In this document: piece by piece, positions 35,329 through 42,370 of the stretch
Layout: every line of letters begins with the position of its first letter
Position numbering within the stretch: the stretch's first letter is position 1
DNA from: Sphingobium sp. Z007
Lineage (GTDB): Bacteria; Pseudomonadota; Alphaproteobacteria; Sphingomonadales; Sphingomonadaceae
Assembly: GCF_900013425.1 (NCBI RefSeq)
Contig: NZ_FBXK01000005.1
Span: 310,001 to 374,000 of the forward strand
Length of the DNA: 64,000 bases
Direction: 5' to 3'
Position numbers and translations under genes: made by a program
Notes under the pieces: generated by a model
What the model saw: only the letters and a program-made list of their open reading frames with translations
What the model was told of the DNA's origin: nothing
Databases searched by the model: none

Positions 35329-35795
35329 TCGTGTTCGATCTCAAATGCGCTGGCCAGGGCCATGTGTTCGAAGCCTGGTTCGGGTCCAGCGCCGATTATG
35401 AGGATCAGAAGGCGCGGGGCCTGCTGGCCTGTCCGCTATGCGGCGATGGTGATGTGACCAAGGCGGTGATGGCGCCGGCCGTGGGCGCGAAGGGCAACAG
35501 CCGCGCGGTCGCAGTGCGGGAAGAGGCCACGGCGCCTGCGATGAGCGGCGCGGACCAGGCAAAGATGAAAGCGCTGGTTGAGGCGTTGGCTACAGCGCAG
35601 AGCAAGGCGCTGGAAGACAGTATCTGGGTCGGCCGCGGTTTCGCCGAGCAGGCGCGCGCCATGCACTATGGCGAAAAGGACCGCGCCAGCATCCATGGCG
35701 AGGTCGCTCCGGCGGAGGCCAAGGCGCTGATCGCCGAGGGCGTGGAGGTCGCGCCGCTGCCGTTCCCTGTGATCCCGCCACAGGCCAAGAATTAA
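35325..35795 (+). CDS. DUF1178 family protein
   Basis: 156 residues, starting with GTG inside the end of the nitrilase-family gene. The N-terminus MIVFDLKCAGQGHVFEAWFGSS and the CxxC pair in LLACPLCGDGDV (about residues 37-40) define DUF1178, which resembles zinc-ribbon regulatory-protein families. The C-terminus EDSIWVGRGFAEQARAMHYGE is also conserved. Function is unknown. It is the last gene of the grxC run and ends 50 bp before the disrupted tRNA-Arg. Confidence 0.88.
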   Translation: MIVFDLKCAGQGHVFEAWFGSSADYEDQKARGLLACPLCGDGDVTKAVMAPAVGAKGNSRAVAVREEATAPAMSGADQAKMKALVEALATAQSKALEDSIWVGRGFAEQARAMHYGEKDRASIHGEVAPAEAKALIAEGVEVAPLPFPVIPPQAKN

Positions 35796-35844
35796 ACGTC
35801 GAAGAATTGACCAGGCGCGCCGCGCGCAATAGAGCCGTCGCCGG

Positions 35845-35886
35845 GCACCCGTAGCTCAGCAGGATAGAGCATTAGATTCCTAATCT
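35845..35886 (+). pseudogene. 5' half of a disrupted tRNA-Arg (CCT) gene
   Basis: GCACCCG (35845-35851), a D arm with GGATA, and the anticodon arm TTAGA-TTCCTAA-TCT are present with anticodon CCT at 35879-35881, after which tRNA sequence stops. No T arm or matching acceptor 3' strand follows. The missing half, with the matching CGGGTGC acceptor strand, lies at 41063-41107 across the inserted element. Joining the two halves at TTCCTAATCT rebuilds a perfect tRNA-Arg. Confidence 0.88.
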
Positions 35887-35891
35887 GATGC

Positions 35892-36008
35892 GGTGCCAAA
35901 TTCGCTGATACCATCCGATACCAAATGTGACCAATAAAATGGCTGATTTCCGTCATTCTATAGAGGTTGTCCGGTCTGGCAATGGTATCAGCGAGTCTCC
36001 CCGGCACC
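35892..36008. repeat. Nested inverted repeat inside the left end of the element
   Basis: TCGCTGATACCA at 35902-35913 is the exact reverse complement of TGGTATCAGCGA at 35983-35994. Outside these, GGTGCC (35892-35897) mirrors GGCACC (36003-36008). The arrangement lies between the left crossover site and the integrase promoter, where core-flanking or regulatory protein sites would be expected. Confidence 0.65.
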
Positions 36009-36026
36009 CCCGCAGTATGGACCTCT

Positions 36027-36046
36027 GACTACTTGTGGACTACTTG
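36027..36046. repeat. Left pair of GACTACTTG repeats (candidate integrase arm sites)
   Basis: GACTACTTG at 36027-36035 and 36038-36046, in direct orientation. The same pair in the same orientation is found near the right end of the element at 40970-40990. Four copies of a 9-mer placed at the two ends suit arm-type integrase binding. Confidence 0.6.
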
Positions 36047-36066
36047 GCCTGCGAAGGGACACAGCT

Positions 36067-37464
36067 ATGGCTGCGAAGAATTTGACGGACACGGCTGTGA
36101 AGGCCGCCAAGCCCACGCCCGGTGCGAAGTCGGCGGATGCGATCAAGGATGGGATGACTCCCGGCCTGTATCTGATGGTGCAGCCAACGGGTTCGAAATC
36201 GTGGGTGTATCAGTATCGCCGCCCCAGCGATCAGAAGCAGGCGAAAATGTCGCTGGGGTCATACCCGGCATTTTCCTTGACCATGGCCCGGTCGTGGGCG
36301 GGCGAACAGGAGGCGCTGCGGGCACGCGGGATCGACCCGAAATTGGAAAAGGTCCGTCTGGAGGAAGAGGCGAAGGCCGTCGAGGACGCCAAGGCAGCGA
36401 ATGACACACAGACCCTTCAATGGTTCTGGGACACCTATTACCTGCCCGACCATGTGGAGACGTTGAAGCAGCCTCACGCTGAAAAGCTGTATTGGTCGCG
36501 ATACCTGTCCGAAATCGCTGCAATGCCGCTTACCGAAATCGACCATAGGGTGCTGGATCGCCTGTTGGATAAGGCAAAGGCGCGGTCACCGCATCAGGGT
36601 TACAAATTCTGTGGCTTCGTCAAAACGTTGTGGAAGCGGATGGTCAGCGAGTATCGATACAAGGTCGTCAATCAGGATGATGCCGCAAGATACCTTGGGG
36701 CCAAGAACACGATCGGCACGGTCGAACGCTACCTTGACGAACGCGAACTGGGCTATGTCATCGCGGTCATCGACCGTTATGCGACTGCCGAAAAGCCAAG
36801 CAACCATCGGTCCTTCGCACTGGGCTTGCGTCTCATCCTAGCGACAGGCTGTCGGCTTGAAGAAGCGATGACTGCGACGTGGGATCAGTTCGATCTTGAC
36901 GAAGGGAGTTGGACGCAACCGGGACCATCCACCAAGAATGGGCGGCCGAACTATCTGCTGCTTCAGCAGCCTATCGTGGACTGGCTGCGGGCGATGAGGG
37001 AGGCGAATCCAAAGGCGACCTTCGTGTTTCAGCAGGCGAAGGCAGATAAGGCGTTGAATGCCTTTTCCAAATCGACGCATCTGCTGTTTCGTGAAACCGA
37101 ACATCTGGCAAAGGCGGACGGCTTCGCCATGGAAGGTTGGTCAGCGCACGATTTTCGGCGCACAATCACCACGACGTTCCAGCGGCTGCATCACCCCGGC
37201 ACGATCAATCGGGTCGTGACCGATGAAGTGACCGAAGCCCTTCTGAACCATGTCGAACGAACCACCACGGTCGGCAGCAGGAAAAATTACAACAAGCACA
37301 ACTATATGCACGAAAAGGCCTACGCGCTGCGCGTGTGGCAAGAGGTGCTGGATAAAGCCAAGGCGGATGAAGATGTCCGCGCCGCAAAACGTGGGCAGCT
37401 TGACCCTATCAAGCGCACGTCCAAGGCGCGGAAGGCGGCTAAAATTTCGGTCAGCCACCTTTGA
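36067..37464 (+). CDS. int: Tyrosine-recombinase integrase (P4 type, DUF4102 N-terminus)
   Basis: 465 residues. The N-terminal DUF4102 arm-binding domain spans about residues 5-95 (LTDTAVKAAKPTPG, LMVQPTGSKSWVYQYR). The core-binding SAM-like domain is at about 115-200 and the catalytic domain follows. Catalytic residues seen: R263 (ATGCRLEEAM), H361 and R364 (SAHDFRRT), H395 (LLNHVE), and the nucleophile Tyr about 408 (SRKNYNKHNY). It should catalyse insertion and excision at the tRNA-Arg anticodon arm, being next to the left crossover site. AGGGA precedes the ATG at 36067. The set of catalytic residues looks complete, so the element may still be mobile. Confidence 0.94.
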   Translation: MAAKNLTDTAVKAAKPTPGAKSADAIKDGMTPGLYLMVQPTGSKSWVYQYRRPSDQKQAKMSLGSYPAFSLTMARSWAGEQEALRARGIDPKLEKVRLEEEAKAVEDAKAANDTQTLQWFWDTYYLPDHVETLKQPHAEKLYWSRYLSEIAAMPLTEIDHRVLDRLLDKAKARSPHQGYKFCGFVKTLWKRMVSEYRYKVVNQDDAARYLGAKNTIGTVERYLDERELGYVIAVIDRYATAEKPSNHRSFALGLRLILATGCRLEEAMTATWDQFDLDEGSWTQPGPSTKNGRPNYLLLQQPIVDWLRAMREANPKATFVFQQAKADKALNAFSKSTHLLFRETEHLAKADGFAMEGWSAHDFRRTITTTFQRLHHPGTINRVVTDEVTEALLNHVERTTTVGSRKNYNKHNYMHEKAYALRVWQEVLDKAKADEDVRAAKRGQLDPIKRTSKARKAAKISVSHL

Positions 37465-37473
37465 CCGGCATGG

Positions 37474-37665
37474 TCAGTGAGTGACTGAAAGCCGGGATTC
37501 CATCCATTGCCGCACCTCGCTTTCGCGCCATGCGACGCGGGTGCGGTTCTTGTTGAGATAAACAGGAGCGGGGAATTCTCCATCCTGACGCATCCGGTAG
37601 ATGGTCATGCGCGACAAGCTGGTCTGTGCCAGCACTTCCTTCTGAGAAATGAGACGGTCGGTCAT
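37474..37665 (-). CDS. AlpA-family excisionase/regulator
   Basis: 63 residues from the ATG at 37665; a TTG at 37677 is an alternative start. The MerR-like winged helix typical of AlpA is clear: MTDRLISQKEVLAQTSLSRM, TIYRMRQDGEFPAPVYL, then AWRESEVRQWMESR. In P4-type elements such proteins bind the element end, stimulate excision and regulate the integrase. It lies tail-to-tail with int, and the IS21-family element begins 35 bp upstream of its start, so its promoter has been displaced or changed by that insertion. Confidence 0.88.
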   Translation of the reverse strand: MTDRLISQKEVLAQTSLSRMTIYRMRQDGEFPAPVYLNKNRTRVAWRESEVRQWMESRLSVTH

Positions 37666-37787
37666 CGGTAGGGTCAATCTATTGGTTGAAGCCCAAAGCT
37701 GTCAATCGGCGTCCAAACGGGACCCCTTATCGGCGCGCAAAAGGGACCCCCTGTCAGGATTGCGCACGGTTGATGTGACGCGCTTCC

Positions 37788-37844
37788 TTGCGCTGCGCGC
37801 GGCGTAGGGAGGGCGTAGCCCGACCGGAGGCGCGCGCAGCGCAA
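37788..37844 (-). terminator. Long hairpin downstream of istB
   Basis: TTGCGCTGCGCGC at 37788-37800 and its exact reverse complement at 37832-37844 form a 13-bp stem around a 31-nt loop, placed just past the istB stop codon. It could end the istAB transcript or shield the IS from outside transcription. There is no clear T-run. Confidence 0.55.
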
Positions 37845-37876
37845 AACATCTTCTAATTGATCGCTGCTGGGGCGGA

Positions 37877-38605
37877 TCAGCTGCGGTTTTTGAAGCGCCA
37901 GCTGTCATTGCCGGTCTCGACAATGTCGCAATGATGGGTGACGCGATCGAGGAGCGCGGTTGTCATCTTGGGATCGCCGAACACGGTGGGCCACTCGCCA
38001 AAGGCGAGGTTGGTGGTGATGATGACACTGGTCTGCTCATAGAGTTTGCTGATCAGGTGGAACAGCAACTGGCCGCCCGATCGAGCGAACGGCAGATACC
38101 CCAGTTCATCGAGCACGATGAGATCGAGGCGGGATAGCTGGGCGGCGAGAGCGCCACTCTTGCCGATCCTGGCCTCCTCTTCGAGGCGGGTCACCAGATC
38201 GACCGTGTTGAAGTAGCGGCCTCGGGCGCCGGAGCGCACTACATTGGCGGTGATGGCGATGGCCAGATGGGTCTTTCCTGTGCCTGTGCCGCCGACCAGG
38301 ACGATATTGCGCCGTGCGGGCAGGAACGCGCCGCTGTGCAATGAACGCACAAGCCCCTCGTTGATCGGGGTACCCTCGAACCGGAAGGCATCGATGTCCT
38401 TCACGACTGGCAGCTTGGCAGCGGCCATCCGGTATCGGATCGACGCGGCATGACGATGCGTCGCCTCCGCTCGCAGGAGATCGGTCAGTATCTCCATGGT
38501 GGTGCGCTGGCGCTGAAGGCCGGTGGTGACGGCATCGTCGAACGCGCCCGCCATGCCCTTGAGTCCAAGCCCGCGCATGGCCTCGATCATATCATGCCGC
38601 TGCAT
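37877..38605 (-). CDS. istB: IS21-family helper ATPase
   Basis: 242 residues, normal IstB length. It is a DnaA-like AAA+ ATPase that helps the IstA transposase choose and hold target DNA. Walker A is [15 protein letters not shown] (about residues 103-117), Walker B is [13 protein letters not shown], and sensor 1 is [17 protein letters not shown]. The frame is intact to the end (FKNRS), so it should be functional. Its start overlaps istA by 14 bp. Confidence 0.96.
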
Positions 38606-40106
38606 CGAAGGTCCTCAGCTGGTCGTAACGGGCACAGTCGGCGATCGGGGGATGGCGCAAGGCGCTATCCTCGGAGGTGATGATCGTCAGCGGACGCGGA
38701 GGCTCCCGGCGTCGTGCCAGGATGTTGAGGATCAGGTCGTCGCTCGCCGTGCCCGTCGCCAGTGCCTCACGCACAGCGGTTTCGACAGGCTCCAGGCCAT
38801 CGGTCAGTACGGCCGACAGTACACGGACGAACCGGCGATCGGCATCGTCGCCATTACCCAGCTTGCGGCGCAGGCGGGCCAGCGCCGGTGGCAGATCCCA
38901 GTCCTGGAAGGGGGCACCGTTCCGCAACGCGCCAGGCTTGCGGGCCAGCACTGGCAGATAATGCCAGGGGTCATAGATCGTGCGGTTGCGCCCAAAGTAG
39001 CGAGGATGTTCAGCGACAACCTCTTCGCCGCAGCGAACGACGATGCGGTCGGCATAGGCGCGGACCTGCACGGTGCGTCGCGACACCGTCGAGAGGACTG
39101 AGTAGCGGTTGCGGTCGAAGCTGATCAGGCAGGTGCCGGTCACGGCATGCTCGCTCTCATTGAAGCCGTCGAACGGTCCCAGCATCGGCTGCAGCGCAGA
39201 TCGTTCGATCTCCAGCATCTGCGCCACGGTCAGATCTCCCTGTTCAGGATGGGGCTGCCGTTCCGCCCAGCGCCGACACTCTGCCTCCAGCCAGCCATTG
39301 AGCTCTTCGAGACTGGCGAACCGCAACCGGGGCTGGAAGAAGCGACCCCGGATCGTCTGCACCTGGTTCTCGACCTGACCCTTCTCCCATCCCGCCGCAG
39401 GCGAGCAGGCCGTGGGCTCGACCATATAATGGTCGGTCATGATCAGGAACCGCCGGTTGAAGACGCGTTCCTTGCCGGTGAACACGCTCGTCACAGCCGT
39501 CTTCATATTATCGTAGATGCCGCGCCCTGGCACGCCGCCGAAGAAGGCAAAGCCGCGCGCATGCGCGTCGAACAGCATCTCCTGGCTCTCGCGAGGATAG
39601 GCCCGGACATAGACCCCACGTGACGCGCACAGGCGCATATGCGCGACCTTCACCCGCATCGGCGCTCCTGCGATCTCGACATCCTCATGGCTCCAGTCGA
39701 ACTGGTAGGCCTCGCCTGGCCTGAACATCAGCGGGATGAAGGCGGTGACGCCATCGCCAGCATCCTTGCGCCGCTCGATCTTCCAGCGCGTCGCATAGCG
39801 CCGCACCGCATCGTAAGAACCCTCAAAGCCTTCTCGCACCAGCAGGTCATGGATCCGCGTCATCCGCAGCCGGTCACGCCTGCCGCGCAGCTCGTTCTCT
39901 TCCAGCAGCGTGTTCAGGCGCTCCTGGAACGGACCGATCCTGGGCAGCGGCTGAACCTTGCGCTGATAATCAAAGGCGCCCTCCGGCGCTCGGACCGCTT
40001 TGCGGATGACCTTCCGCGACACATGCAGATCCCGTGCGATCGCCTTGATCGCCTTGCCTCCGGCATACTCGCGCCGGATCCGTAAAACTGTCTCCAAAAC
40101 CAACAT
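38592..40106 (-). CDS. istA: IS21-family transposase
   Basis: 504 residues. It has an N-terminal helix-turn-helix ([19 protein letters not shown], about residues 19-37), then a DDE integrase core. The likely acidic triad is Asp in [12 protein letters not shown], Asp in [12 protein letters not shown], and Glu in [12 protein letters not shown]. The C-terminal beta-barrel region follows. The frame is uninterrupted. It is the upstream gene of the istAB pair and reads away from the right end of the IS. Confidence 0.96.
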
Positions 40107-40233
40107 CCCGATCTCGCCGCCTGAAAATCCAGCCGGCTGCTTAAACCATCGAAATGAGGGGTCCCTTTTAGACGCCGATCACCCCGCTAACGGGGTCCTT
40201 TTTGCACGCCGATCCACAATCTAAGCCAAAAAA

Positions 40234-40629
40234 TCAGCTTTTTTGGAGGGTGTCGATCAGAAGGTCGGCTTCCACCATCATATCCATCGCGCTCGCTTCC
40301 ATCCGCAGCCGTGAAGCTTCGCCACAATCACCATAGATTTCCGCAAGCTGGGCAGCCTGTCGGTAGGCCTGCGCGGCGAACCACCGCACGCGACTGAATG
40401 AGTCTTTGAAGTGAGGCTGGTCCAGATGCTCGGCTTCAGCGTCCGTGGTCTGCCATACTGGAGCGCGGCGTGGGACGTATCGGGGGAGGCGTGGGGACAG
40501 CCCTAGTTCGGCCCGCTCTTGGTCGGTGAGGCTGTCGAGATAGTCGGCTTGTTCATCGTCGGTCATGTCGACCGGGGACCAGTCAGCGCCTGTGCCGTGG
40601 AGCATAGGAATGGGATCATGGGTGTCCAT
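40234..40629 (-). CDS. Hypothetical acidic protein of the integrative element
   Basis: 131 residues, soluble, acidic. The N-terminal half is rich in Asp/Pro (VDMTDDEQADYLDSLTDQER, LSPRLPRYVPRR) and the C-terminal half is helical (FAAQAYRQAAQLAEIYGD, RMEASAMDMMVEADLLIDTL), resembling a short tetratricopeptide-like hairpin. No family is recognised. It is the only element gene besides int, the AlpA gene and the tRNA that does not belong to the IS, and the IS right end lies only 15 bp past its stop codon. A role in element maintenance or regulation is possible but unsupported. Confidence 0.6.
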   Translation of the reverse strand: MDTHDPIPMLHGTGADWSPVDMTDDEQADYLDSLTDQERAELGLSPRLPRYVPRRAPVWQTTDAEAEHLDQPHFKDSFSRVRWFAAQAYRQAAQLAEIYGDCGEASRLRMEASAMDMMVEADLLIDTLQKS

Positions 40630-40734
40630 GATCCTACTTAGTCTGGGGACGTGGAACCGGGGCGGGGGATGGTGGTTATCCAGCTATCGGACTTAGCTTC
40701 ATCGCCCCCCGCATGACAGTCCGATGATCCATTC

Positions 40735-40769
40735 GACCCCGTCAGCATCCCCCCGACGCTGGCGGGGTC
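40735..40769. terminator. Hairpin upstream of the element's tRNA-Arg
   Basis: GACCCCGTCAGC at 40735-40746 pairs with GCTGGCGGGGTC at 40758-40769 (12 pairs, one G-T) around an 11-nt loop. It separates the hypothetical gene from the tRNA. The remaining sequence between 40630 and 40831 shows no gene. Confidence 0.55.
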
Positions 40770-40831
40770 TCATGTCTTCATACAGAAAGGGTGGACGATC
40801 GGCAGGGCGGACGATATTGACCCAATCGAGT

Positions 40832-40908
40832 GGTCCCGTAACTCAGCCGGATAGAGTGCGAAATTCCTAATTTCGAAGCCGCGCGTTCGAATCGCGCCGG
40901 GACCACCA
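40832..40908 (+). tRNA. tRNA-Arg (anticodon CCT) carried by the integrative element
   Basis: Complete cloverleaf: acceptor GGTCCCG (40832-40838) with CGGGACC (40898-40904); D arm ACTC...GAGT with GGATA in the loop; anticodon stem CGAAA/TTTCG with loop TTCCTAA and CCT at 40866-40868; T stem GCGCG/CGCGC with loop TTCGAAT; ACCA encoded at 40905-40908. It decodes AGG. The sequence outside the anticodon loop differs widely from the split host tRNA-Arg, so it is a distinct gene brought by the element, not a copy restored by integration. Confidence 0.95.
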
Positions 40909-40969
40909 CCTTCCCCCGATTGCCCGTCTGACTGCCCGGTGGCTACCTAGCCCAGTGGGAAAAAGCTGT

Positions 40970-40990
40970 GACTACTTGGCTGACTACTTG
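40970..40990. repeat. Right pair of GACTACTTG repeats (candidate integrase arm sites)
   Basis: GACTACTTG at 40970-40978 and 40982-40990, same orientation as the left pair at 36027-36046, about 75 bp inside the right crossover site. Confidence 0.6.
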
Positions 40991-41062
40991 GTCGTTGACA
41001 ATCTGGCGATCGTCCCATAAAAGACACGGTATTCCGCCATTTTTGGTGGGGCAGTCGTAGGT

Positions 41063-41107
41063 TTCCTAATCTAAGGGCCATGGGTTCGAATCCCGTCGGG
41101 TGCACCA
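41063..41107 (+). pseudogene. 3' half of the disrupted tRNA-Arg (CCT) gene
   Basis: TTCCTAATCT (crossover core), AAGGGCC, T stem ATGGG/CCCGT with loop TTCGAAT, acceptor strand CGGGTGC (41097-41103) and encoded ACCA (41104-41107). The 5' half is at 35845-35886. Upstream sequence does not supply a D arm or a matching acceptor strand, so this half cannot fold as a tRNA. Confidence 0.88.
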
Positions 41108-41113
41108 TTTCCC

Positions 41114-42370
41114 TTATCGCGAACGCCGCACCGGGCAGATAGTGATTGCGCCCAGCAGCGCGAAGCCGCAGCCGACCACGTACAACACCGCATAATCATC
41201 GCCGCGCGCGCTGCCGATCGCCAGGATGATCGGGGCGATGGCGGGGGCGAGGGATTGGGGCAGGCTGTTGGCGATCTGGAACACGCCCATATCCTTGGCG
41301 CTGTCCTCGGGCCGGGGCAGTATGGCGGCGAGCAGGGCCAGATCGACGGCGAAATACAGGCCCTTGCCGATCCCCGCCATCGCCACGCCGACCAGGAATT
41401 GCGGCACCGACGGGGCAAAGGCGATCGTCAGGAAACCCGCCGCCTCCAGGGTCGCGGCCAGGAATACCAGTGGCTTGCGGCGGCCGGTCCAGTCGGTGAT
41501 GAAGCCGCCGACCAGCGAGATCGCAATGGTCGCGATCGCGATGATCGCCATCGACTTGACCATGACCTGCGTGGCTTCCCCGCGCGGCAGGGATAGCTGA
41601 TCGGTCAGGAAGAAAAGCTGATAGGTCAGCAGGAACGACCAGGCCATCATGATCAGGAAGCGGCTGGTAAAGGCCCAACTGAAGTCCCAGTCGCGAAACG
41701 GCGCGCCGACCGCGCGCAGCAGGGCGACGGGGCCAAGGCGGCGTTGATCGTCGCCTGTCGCTGGACGATCCGGCAGGATCAGGCACAGCGCGCCGATCGC
41801 GACCACGGTGATGGCGAAAGGGGCGAGGAACATCAGCAGCGAGGATCTCTGCGTATATTGGGTGATCCAGCTGCCCGCGAAGGTGCCCATAGTCGATGTC
41901 ATGCCCAGCATGCCCGCGACACGCCCCTGCCAGCGCACGGGGATGATGTCCGGCAGGATCGGCAGGCAACCCGCCTGCATCGCGTTGAACCCGGCCTGGC
42001 AGATGATCCAGCCCAGCCCAAGCAGCAGCAGATTGGGCGCTAGGCCCAGCAGCAGCAGGCCTGCGCCCGCGACCACCAGCCCGCCCAGCAGCCACGGCCG
42101 GCGACGGCCGAAGCGGCTGCGTGTCCGATCGGACAGCGCGCCGCAAACGGGCGTTGCCACCAGCGCGACGAAGCCGCCGATCGCCAGGATAATGCCCAGC
42201 CAGCGGCCCTTGTCCGCCTCGCTCGCAATGTCGCCGACGCGCAGCGCCAGCGTCATCACCACCGGCGTCAACAGCGCGACCCAGATGCCGAACTGCGCCA
42301 GCACATAGATGGCGATAAAGCCGATCGACACCGGCGGACGGGTGCCTTGCGGTGATGGCGAAGATGTCAT
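41114..42370 (-). CDS. MFS transporter of the glycan locus
   Basis: 418 residues, about 12 hydrophobic spans. The loop between helices 2 and 3, GALSDRTRSRFGRRRPWLLG, is the extended form seen in sugar-transporting MFS and GPH-type carriers, and a second copy occurs as ITDWTGRRKPLV. It is the last gene of the minus-strand run from the TonB receptor, 24 bp after the sulfatase gene. It probably carries the released mono- or disaccharide across the inner membrane. The window gives no substrate test. Its stop codon lies 6 bp from the end of the split tRNA-Arg. Confidence 0.88.
   Translation of the reverse strand: MTSSPSPQGTRPPVSIGFIAIYVLAQFGIWVALLTPVVMTLALRVGDIASEADKGRWLGIILAIGGFVALVATPVCGALSDRTRSRFGRRRPWLLGGLVVAGAGLLLLGLAPNLLLLGLGWIICQAGFNAMQAGCLPILPDIIPVRWQGRVAGMLGMTSTMGTFAGSWITQYTQRSSLLMFLAPFAITVVAIGALCLILPDRPATGDDQRRLGPVALLRAVGAPFRDWDFSWAFTSRFLIMMAWSFLLTYQLFFLTDQLSLPRGEATQVMVKSMAIIAIATIAISLVGGFITDWTGRRKPLVFLAATLEAAGFLTIAFAPSVPQFLVGVAMAGIGKGLYFAVDLALLAAILPRPEDSAKDMGVFQIANSLPQSLAPAIAPIILAIGSARGDDYAVLYVVGCGFALLGAITICPVRRSR

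Follow-up and report, generated by a model that had tools for sequence, protein, structure and literature searches.

Disruption and Probable Replacement of a Host tRNA-Arg Gene

In the stretch of Sphingobium sp. Z007 DNA analysed here (64,000 nucleotides of contig NZ_FBXK01000005.1, positions 310,001 to 374,000; hereafter the window), a 5.2-kb element, including a copy of an IS21-family insertion sequence (IS), lies between two halves of the host gene for tRNA-Arg(CCT) and carries a complete tRNA-Arg gene with the same anticodon. Sequence comparison makes it highly probable that this element is what is left of a temperate phage whose lysogeny was tRNA-dependent. The sequences that carry this reading are the following.

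35845..35886, + strand, 5' half of the host tRNA-Arg(CCT), on the side of the left attachment site (attL); the core TTCCTAATCT forms its final 10 bases (35877-35886)
41063..41107, + strand, 3' half of the host tRNA-Arg(CCT), on the side of the right attachment site (attR); its first 10 bases are the core TTCCTAATCT
40832..40908, + strand, complete element tRNA-Arg(CCT), the replacement (ARAGORN, Rfam)

The host gene is cut within its anticodon arm. The core occurs twice in the window, at 35877 and 41063; the flanking bases disagree between these two occurrences, which limits the shared sequence to 10 bp. With so short a core neither end restores the host gene: by its sequence and by ARAGORN, which called no tRNA at either half, a functional tRNA is rebuilt neither at attL nor at attR. 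The element thus differs from those that restore a tRNA by supplying its missing part at one junction. A relative without the element (G034, locus L096) possesses an uninterrupted tRNA-Arg(CCT), which is identical to the rejoined halves of the window at all 77 positions. The flanks of the two loci are 90.8% (left) and 90.1% (right) identical over 1.4 kb each, and they share their neighbours, i.e., genes for a glutaredoxin, a carbon-nitrogen hydrolase and a DUF1178 protein on the left and for an MFS transporter on the right. The initial annotation of this DNA had given the same positions for the two halves, had joined them by the 10-bp core only into a perfect tRNA, had considered neither end capable of restoring the gene, and had predicted an intact tRNA at this junction in relatives lacking the element; all of this is borne out. 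Chance was considered as an explanation and rejected, and so was an assembly artefact, as both the halves and the element tRNA recur in a separate assembly, that of Sphingobium sp. Leaf26.

The element tRNA is the single tRNA found by Rfam, at the gathering threshold, within 35700-41300. Its predicted fold is a cloverleaf (-28.6 kcal/mol, z -3.04), and it equals the host tRNA at only 56 of 77 positions, so that its body is a different one, as had been claimed. Its sequence reads A20, anticodon CCT and A73, which we take to be arginine identity features. A GC-rich inverted repeat at 40735-40769, ca. 60 bp upstream of this gene, was seen by eye and was not reported by the terminator scan. In the genome as a whole 52 tRNAs match RF00005, the element tRNA among them. 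The remaining 51, typed by ARAGORN on fetched stretches, include no anticodon CCT; the other arginine tRNAs are TCT, CCG and ACG (twice). No second tRNA-Arg(CCT) that would make the replacement unnecessary was, therefore, found, the case that the initial annotation had named as speaking against its reading.

No source of the element tRNA could be pinned among the loci and records compared. From a search of 397 genomes of the family 12 loci were compared, including that of the window itself; among the remaining 11, the best ones match at 64 of 77 positions and belong to other genera, and the best local blastn match is 89%. Rhizobial plasmid records match at about 80-85% over the tRNA.

Relation to a Prophage of Sphingobium sp. 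Leaf26

Apart from the tRNA sequences, the element contains the following features.

35902..35994, + strand, long hairpin directly adjoining attL on its inner side (-45.1 kcal/mol, z -4.68; perfect complementarity between the arms 35902-35914 and 35982-35994)
36027..36046, + strand, two GACTACTTG repeats near the left end, possible integrase arm sites (repeat count in window)
36067..37464, + strand, tyrosine integrase of 465 amino acids (aa), open frame (PF13356, PF00589, phrog_1)
37474..37677, - strand, AlpA-like small regulator, possible excision factor (PF05930)
37700..40218, - strand, IS21-family copy (IstB 37877-38605, IstA-like 38592-40106)
40234..40629, - strand, gene of 131 aa without a family match; its Leaf26 counterpart is 40% identical
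40970..40990, + strand, two GACTACTTG repeats near the right end, possible integrase arm sites (repeat count in window)

The element thus has a tyrosine integrase and a bacterial attachment site (attB) that overlaps a host tRNA gene, and no phage structural genes are left in it. All four copies of GACTACTTG in the window lie near the ends of the element, two per end, a placement that integrase arm sites would have. The hairpin lies between the host half and the integrase gene and is also present in Leaf26.

The probable origin of the element becomes apparent from a search of the 93 other genomes of the genus with its integrase, which resulted in one close relative (98%; next best 32%), that of Sphingobium sp. 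Leaf26 (G041, NZ_LMKV01000001). Here the 5' half of the host tRNA lies at C1:692760-692801, the 3' half at 649642-649686 and the element tRNA at 649841-649917; the halves are split as in the window, the element tRNA is identical to that of the window at 77 of 77 positions, and in both it lies 154 bp from attR. Relatives with split halves and no element tRNA would, according to the initial annotation, have refuted its reading; none was found, as the sole other genome found with the split has the element tRNA.

The Leaf26 element is about 43 kb long and has an entry of 42,462 bases among the viral contigs of IMG/VR. Out of six structural candidates among its open reading frames (ORFs) that were compared with PHROGs, five match terminase, portal, head morphogenesis, major head and minor tail families, and the sixth matches a family of unknown function. 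By its gene content it is a tailed prophage and a temperate phage. Homology with the window runs from the host DNA through attL, the integrase and AlpA to 37700, breaks at the IS21 copy, and resumes at 40241, so that the IS21 copy occupies the position of some 40 kb of phage DNA in Leaf26. The same IS is present in nine copies in the genome (≥99% over the whole length), and by eye no target duplication surrounds the copy at 37700-40218. The window element is, therefore, most likely the remnant of a Leaf26-like prophage that retained the tRNA and, besides both ends, the genes for the integrase, for AlpA and for one small protein. The simplest reading of the break is that the phage body was lost by IS21-mediated deletion.

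Alternatively, the window element may be a small independent element, whose ends and tRNA were taken over by the Leaf26 phage. The two forms have only their ends in common and the 131-aa genes are merely 40% identical, which suggests that the right part is mosaic. However, on one side homology ends exactly at the IS21 copy, as a deletion linked to the IS predicts, and a short form without IS21 was not found in the integrase searches of the genus genomes, the genome contigs and the viral contigs. We consider this alternative very unlikely and prefer the remnant of a prophage.

Near its ends the element DNA is 97-99% identical between the window and Leaf26, more than the host flanks (87-88%), and the element, therefore, seems to have arrived after the hosts diverged, either via two insertions or by transfer. 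Between the two strains the host halves do not differ, which a recent breakage would lead one to expect. The unchanged halves could also be explained if they were transcribed and joined in trans, like the split tRNAs of some archaea, in which case the host tRNA would not be lost. We rejected this extremely improbable scenario: the core is present in both halves and would be duplicated by plain joining, a complete tRNA-Arg(CCT) is present, and the halves are 5.2 kb apart in the window genome and 43 kb in Leaf26. Splicing of this type is not known from bacteria.

Searches for further relatives of the integrase gave a single relative, Leaf26, among genome contigs and likewise among viral contigs, where the Leaf26 prophage was also found by integrase alignment. 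The closer integrase relatives (86, 76, 66, and 50%) are encoded on contigs of only 2.3 to 12.1 kb. In plasmid and phage records (203 and 190 matching records, respectively) nothing reached 60% identity, and the attL junction sequence had no match in the viral contigs.

Comparison with Known Cases of tRNA-Dependent Lysogeny

The sequence of events that we propose is that a prophage with a tyrosine integrase would have entered the single-copy host gene for tRNA-Arg(CCT) in its anticodon arm and broken it, and that the element tRNA would be transcribed, charged with arginine and take over the work of the host tRNA. The need for this tRNA would then have kept its stretch of DNA while the phage genes went, most simply by the IS21-mediated deletion. 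The integrase, still an open frame, would by precise excision recreate the host gene.

This mechanism is already known. In the sections of PMC10865867 considered here, experiments demonstrate tRNA-dependent lysogeny in mycobacteriophages, the table gives cores of 8 to 17 bp, further actinophages are listed, and the Lactobacillus prophage Lj965 is named as a possible case. The actinobacteriophages described there (Fionnbharth, LeBron, Gaia, and others) resemble the window element in having a tyrosine integrase, an attB located close to the anticodon of a host tRNA, a core of ca. 10 bp, junctions neither of which rebuilds the tRNA, and a tRNA of the same isotype with another body, while the host tRNA is single-copy. 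Unlike in these phages, the host in the window is a sphingomonad, the tRNA is tRNA-Arg(CCT) and lies at the distance from attR given above, and the phage, known from its sequence, has decayed to 5.2 kb including the IS. A similar case is that of two Sinorhizobium meliloti (S. meliloti) prophages which, in the corresponding sections of PMC11476347, disrupt tRNA-Leu(UAG) and bring a tRNA similar to it. These prophages, which resemble Mesorhizobium phage vB_MloP_Lo5R7ANS, share with the window element a host in the Alphaproteobacteria, a central insertion that breaks the tRNA and a tRNA gene described as functionally similar, whereas the tRNA of the S. meliloti prophages is a different one and their host belongs to another order. 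The same sections report that attR matches the 5' end of a tRNA in 9 out of 88 elements; in those of PMC12429752, on another prophage group, no such case is found.

Our finding extends tRNA-dependent lysogeny to sphingomonads and suggests a fate for such a prophage, namely that the phage decays and the tRNA stays. As far as we have searched, the sphingomonad host and a decayed prophage keeping its tRNA are new: judged by titles and the starts of abstracts, the literature on tRNA-dependent lysogeny contains no sphingomonad case, and that on prophages, tRNAs and integrases of Sphingobium, which includes a paper on a Sphingobium phage (Lacusarx), has, among the papers listed, by title none on this subject.

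Is the Element tRNA Required by the Host?

We infer that the host needs the element tRNA. Several observations weigh against this or against the proposed history as a whole. A simple scan, for the sigma-70 consensus only, did not find a promoter for the element tRNA. The AGG codon is rare: 36 of 15,894 codons in the 41 mechanically defined ORFs of ≥200 aa in the window outside the element. The tRNA-Arg(TCT) of the genome might read it. The 5'-part pattern of tRNA-Arg(CCT) has no match in two of the 94 genus genomes, G050 (97% complete) and G064 (60% complete), and the arrangement described here was found in only two genomes, the window strain and Leaf26. Finally, the identity of the element tRNA in these two genomes is weak evidence of selection, since at the divergence of the adjacent sequence (10 out of 362 aligned positions differ) only about two changes would be expected. 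The literature, by listings and the starts of abstracts, held nothing usable on the essentiality of tRNA-Arg(CCU).

These points lead to an alternative explanation in which the element tRNA is a passenger. With tRNA-Arg(TCT) present and wobble-reading AGG, disruption of the host gene would be cheap, and the phage would have carried its tRNA for, e.g., lytic translation or to evade tRNA-cutting defences. The rarity of AGG in the host (2.27 per 1000 codons) as well as in the prophage (2.50) and the case of G050 are in line with this. However, the pattern is present in 92 of the 94 genus genomes and in 349 of the 397 family genomes, and one complete tRNA-Arg(CCT) appears to be retained in nearly every genome of the genus. 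Moreover, the carried tRNA is of exactly the kind that was broken, and in the window it has outlived the phage body. A passenger tRNA thus seems unlikely, and a tRNA that replaces the broken one remains our preferred explanation.

A replacement tRNA should not make the element addictive. The initial annotation, which did not recognise the prophage origin, was right in stressing the breakage of the only host tRNA-Arg(CCT) found, the ends that are not rebuilt and the gene with the same anticodon, yet its description of this as close to an addiction mechanism fits badly and is too strong. Because excision at the core would leave an intact host tRNA like that of G034, no penalty is expected for losing the element; a cost should arise only if its tRNA is lost from the integrated form. 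The design would, therefore, guard the tRNA stretch from decay rather than the element from loss. As with toxin-antitoxin modules the host would come to depend on something that the element supplies, but the element has no toxin and excision should leave a healthy cell. The case also serves as a warning that a prophage remnant may hold a gene that the cell needs.

The tRNA-Arg(CCT) Site in the Genus and Family

Two copies of the 5'-part pattern occur in seven of the 92 genus genomes that contain it. Two of these are the window strain (G000) and Leaf26, which carry the element described here. In the five others (G002, G007, G047, G051, and G074) one of the two copies is a 5' half that continues as other DNA, and the second, preceded by a different leader, is complete, which indicates that in these genomes the 5' part is supplied by an element. 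The usual rebuilding of the 3' part is recognised by a 3' fragment apart from an intact gene and is present in at least G091, G093 and, at another place, G007; these are minimum numbers for the genus. In G007 (C1:26805-100258; L185, L186, L187) two elements, one rebuilding the 5' part and one the 3' part, appear to lie in a row at one site. All these elements use the same tRNA as the window element, the same crossover region and, where the neighbours could be checked, the same site. They carry the missing part of the tRNA, whereas the window element carries a whole tRNA and both host parts are dead. Three strategies are thus used at one tRNA site in one genus, i.e., rebuilding of the 3' part, rebuilding of the 5' part, and provision of a whole new gene, and the origin of the replacement strategy is, therefore, open to comparative study.

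Two further genomes may show what becomes of such replacements. In G005 (C1:4437279-4437355; L196) and G052 (C2:737854-737930; L197) the usual site after DUF1178 is without a tRNA, and the sole tRNA-Arg(CCT) found has another body, lies 1.4 and 6.2 kb away, respectively, and has a leader resembling that of the element tRNA; these could be old replacements. What seems to be a promoter-like leader is still present in G052 at the former position of the tRNA. We tentatively suggest, as a possibility that we ourselves regard with some doubt, that the replacement tRNA acts as a ratchet: as soon as a prophage provides the sole working tRNA of its kind, the rest of the phage may be lost, and a foreign gene would take the place of the host tRNA gene. 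The window would then represent a middle stage, and G005 and G052 could be end stages. If true, tRNA-dependent lysogeny would be a route for the exchange of tRNA genes among bacteria.

Outside the genus, five genomes with two copies were examined and these provided no further case of replacement. Three (G110, G259, and G266) look like rebuilding of the 5' part, while G184 and G263 possess close tandem copies of tRNA-Arg(CCT), one of which is broken. In these tandems (C1:1766926-1767102 and C1:425373-425552, respectively) the copies are about 155 bp apart, and one copy ends after GGTTCG into sequence that is similar in both genera.

The tRNA pattern is also present in at least 120 stretches of viral contigs. 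A rough script sorted 80 of these into 58 complete-looking tRNAs, 11 5' halves running into other DNA, and 11 that are not tRNAs. Among the stretches compared, the most similar complete tRNA (L268) adjoins what looks by eye like a host gene. The 11 5' halves (L199, L207, L212, L217, L242, L245, L247, L249, L250, L259, and L269) may be further cases of 5' rebuilding or of replacement, by other elements in tRNA-Arg(CCT).

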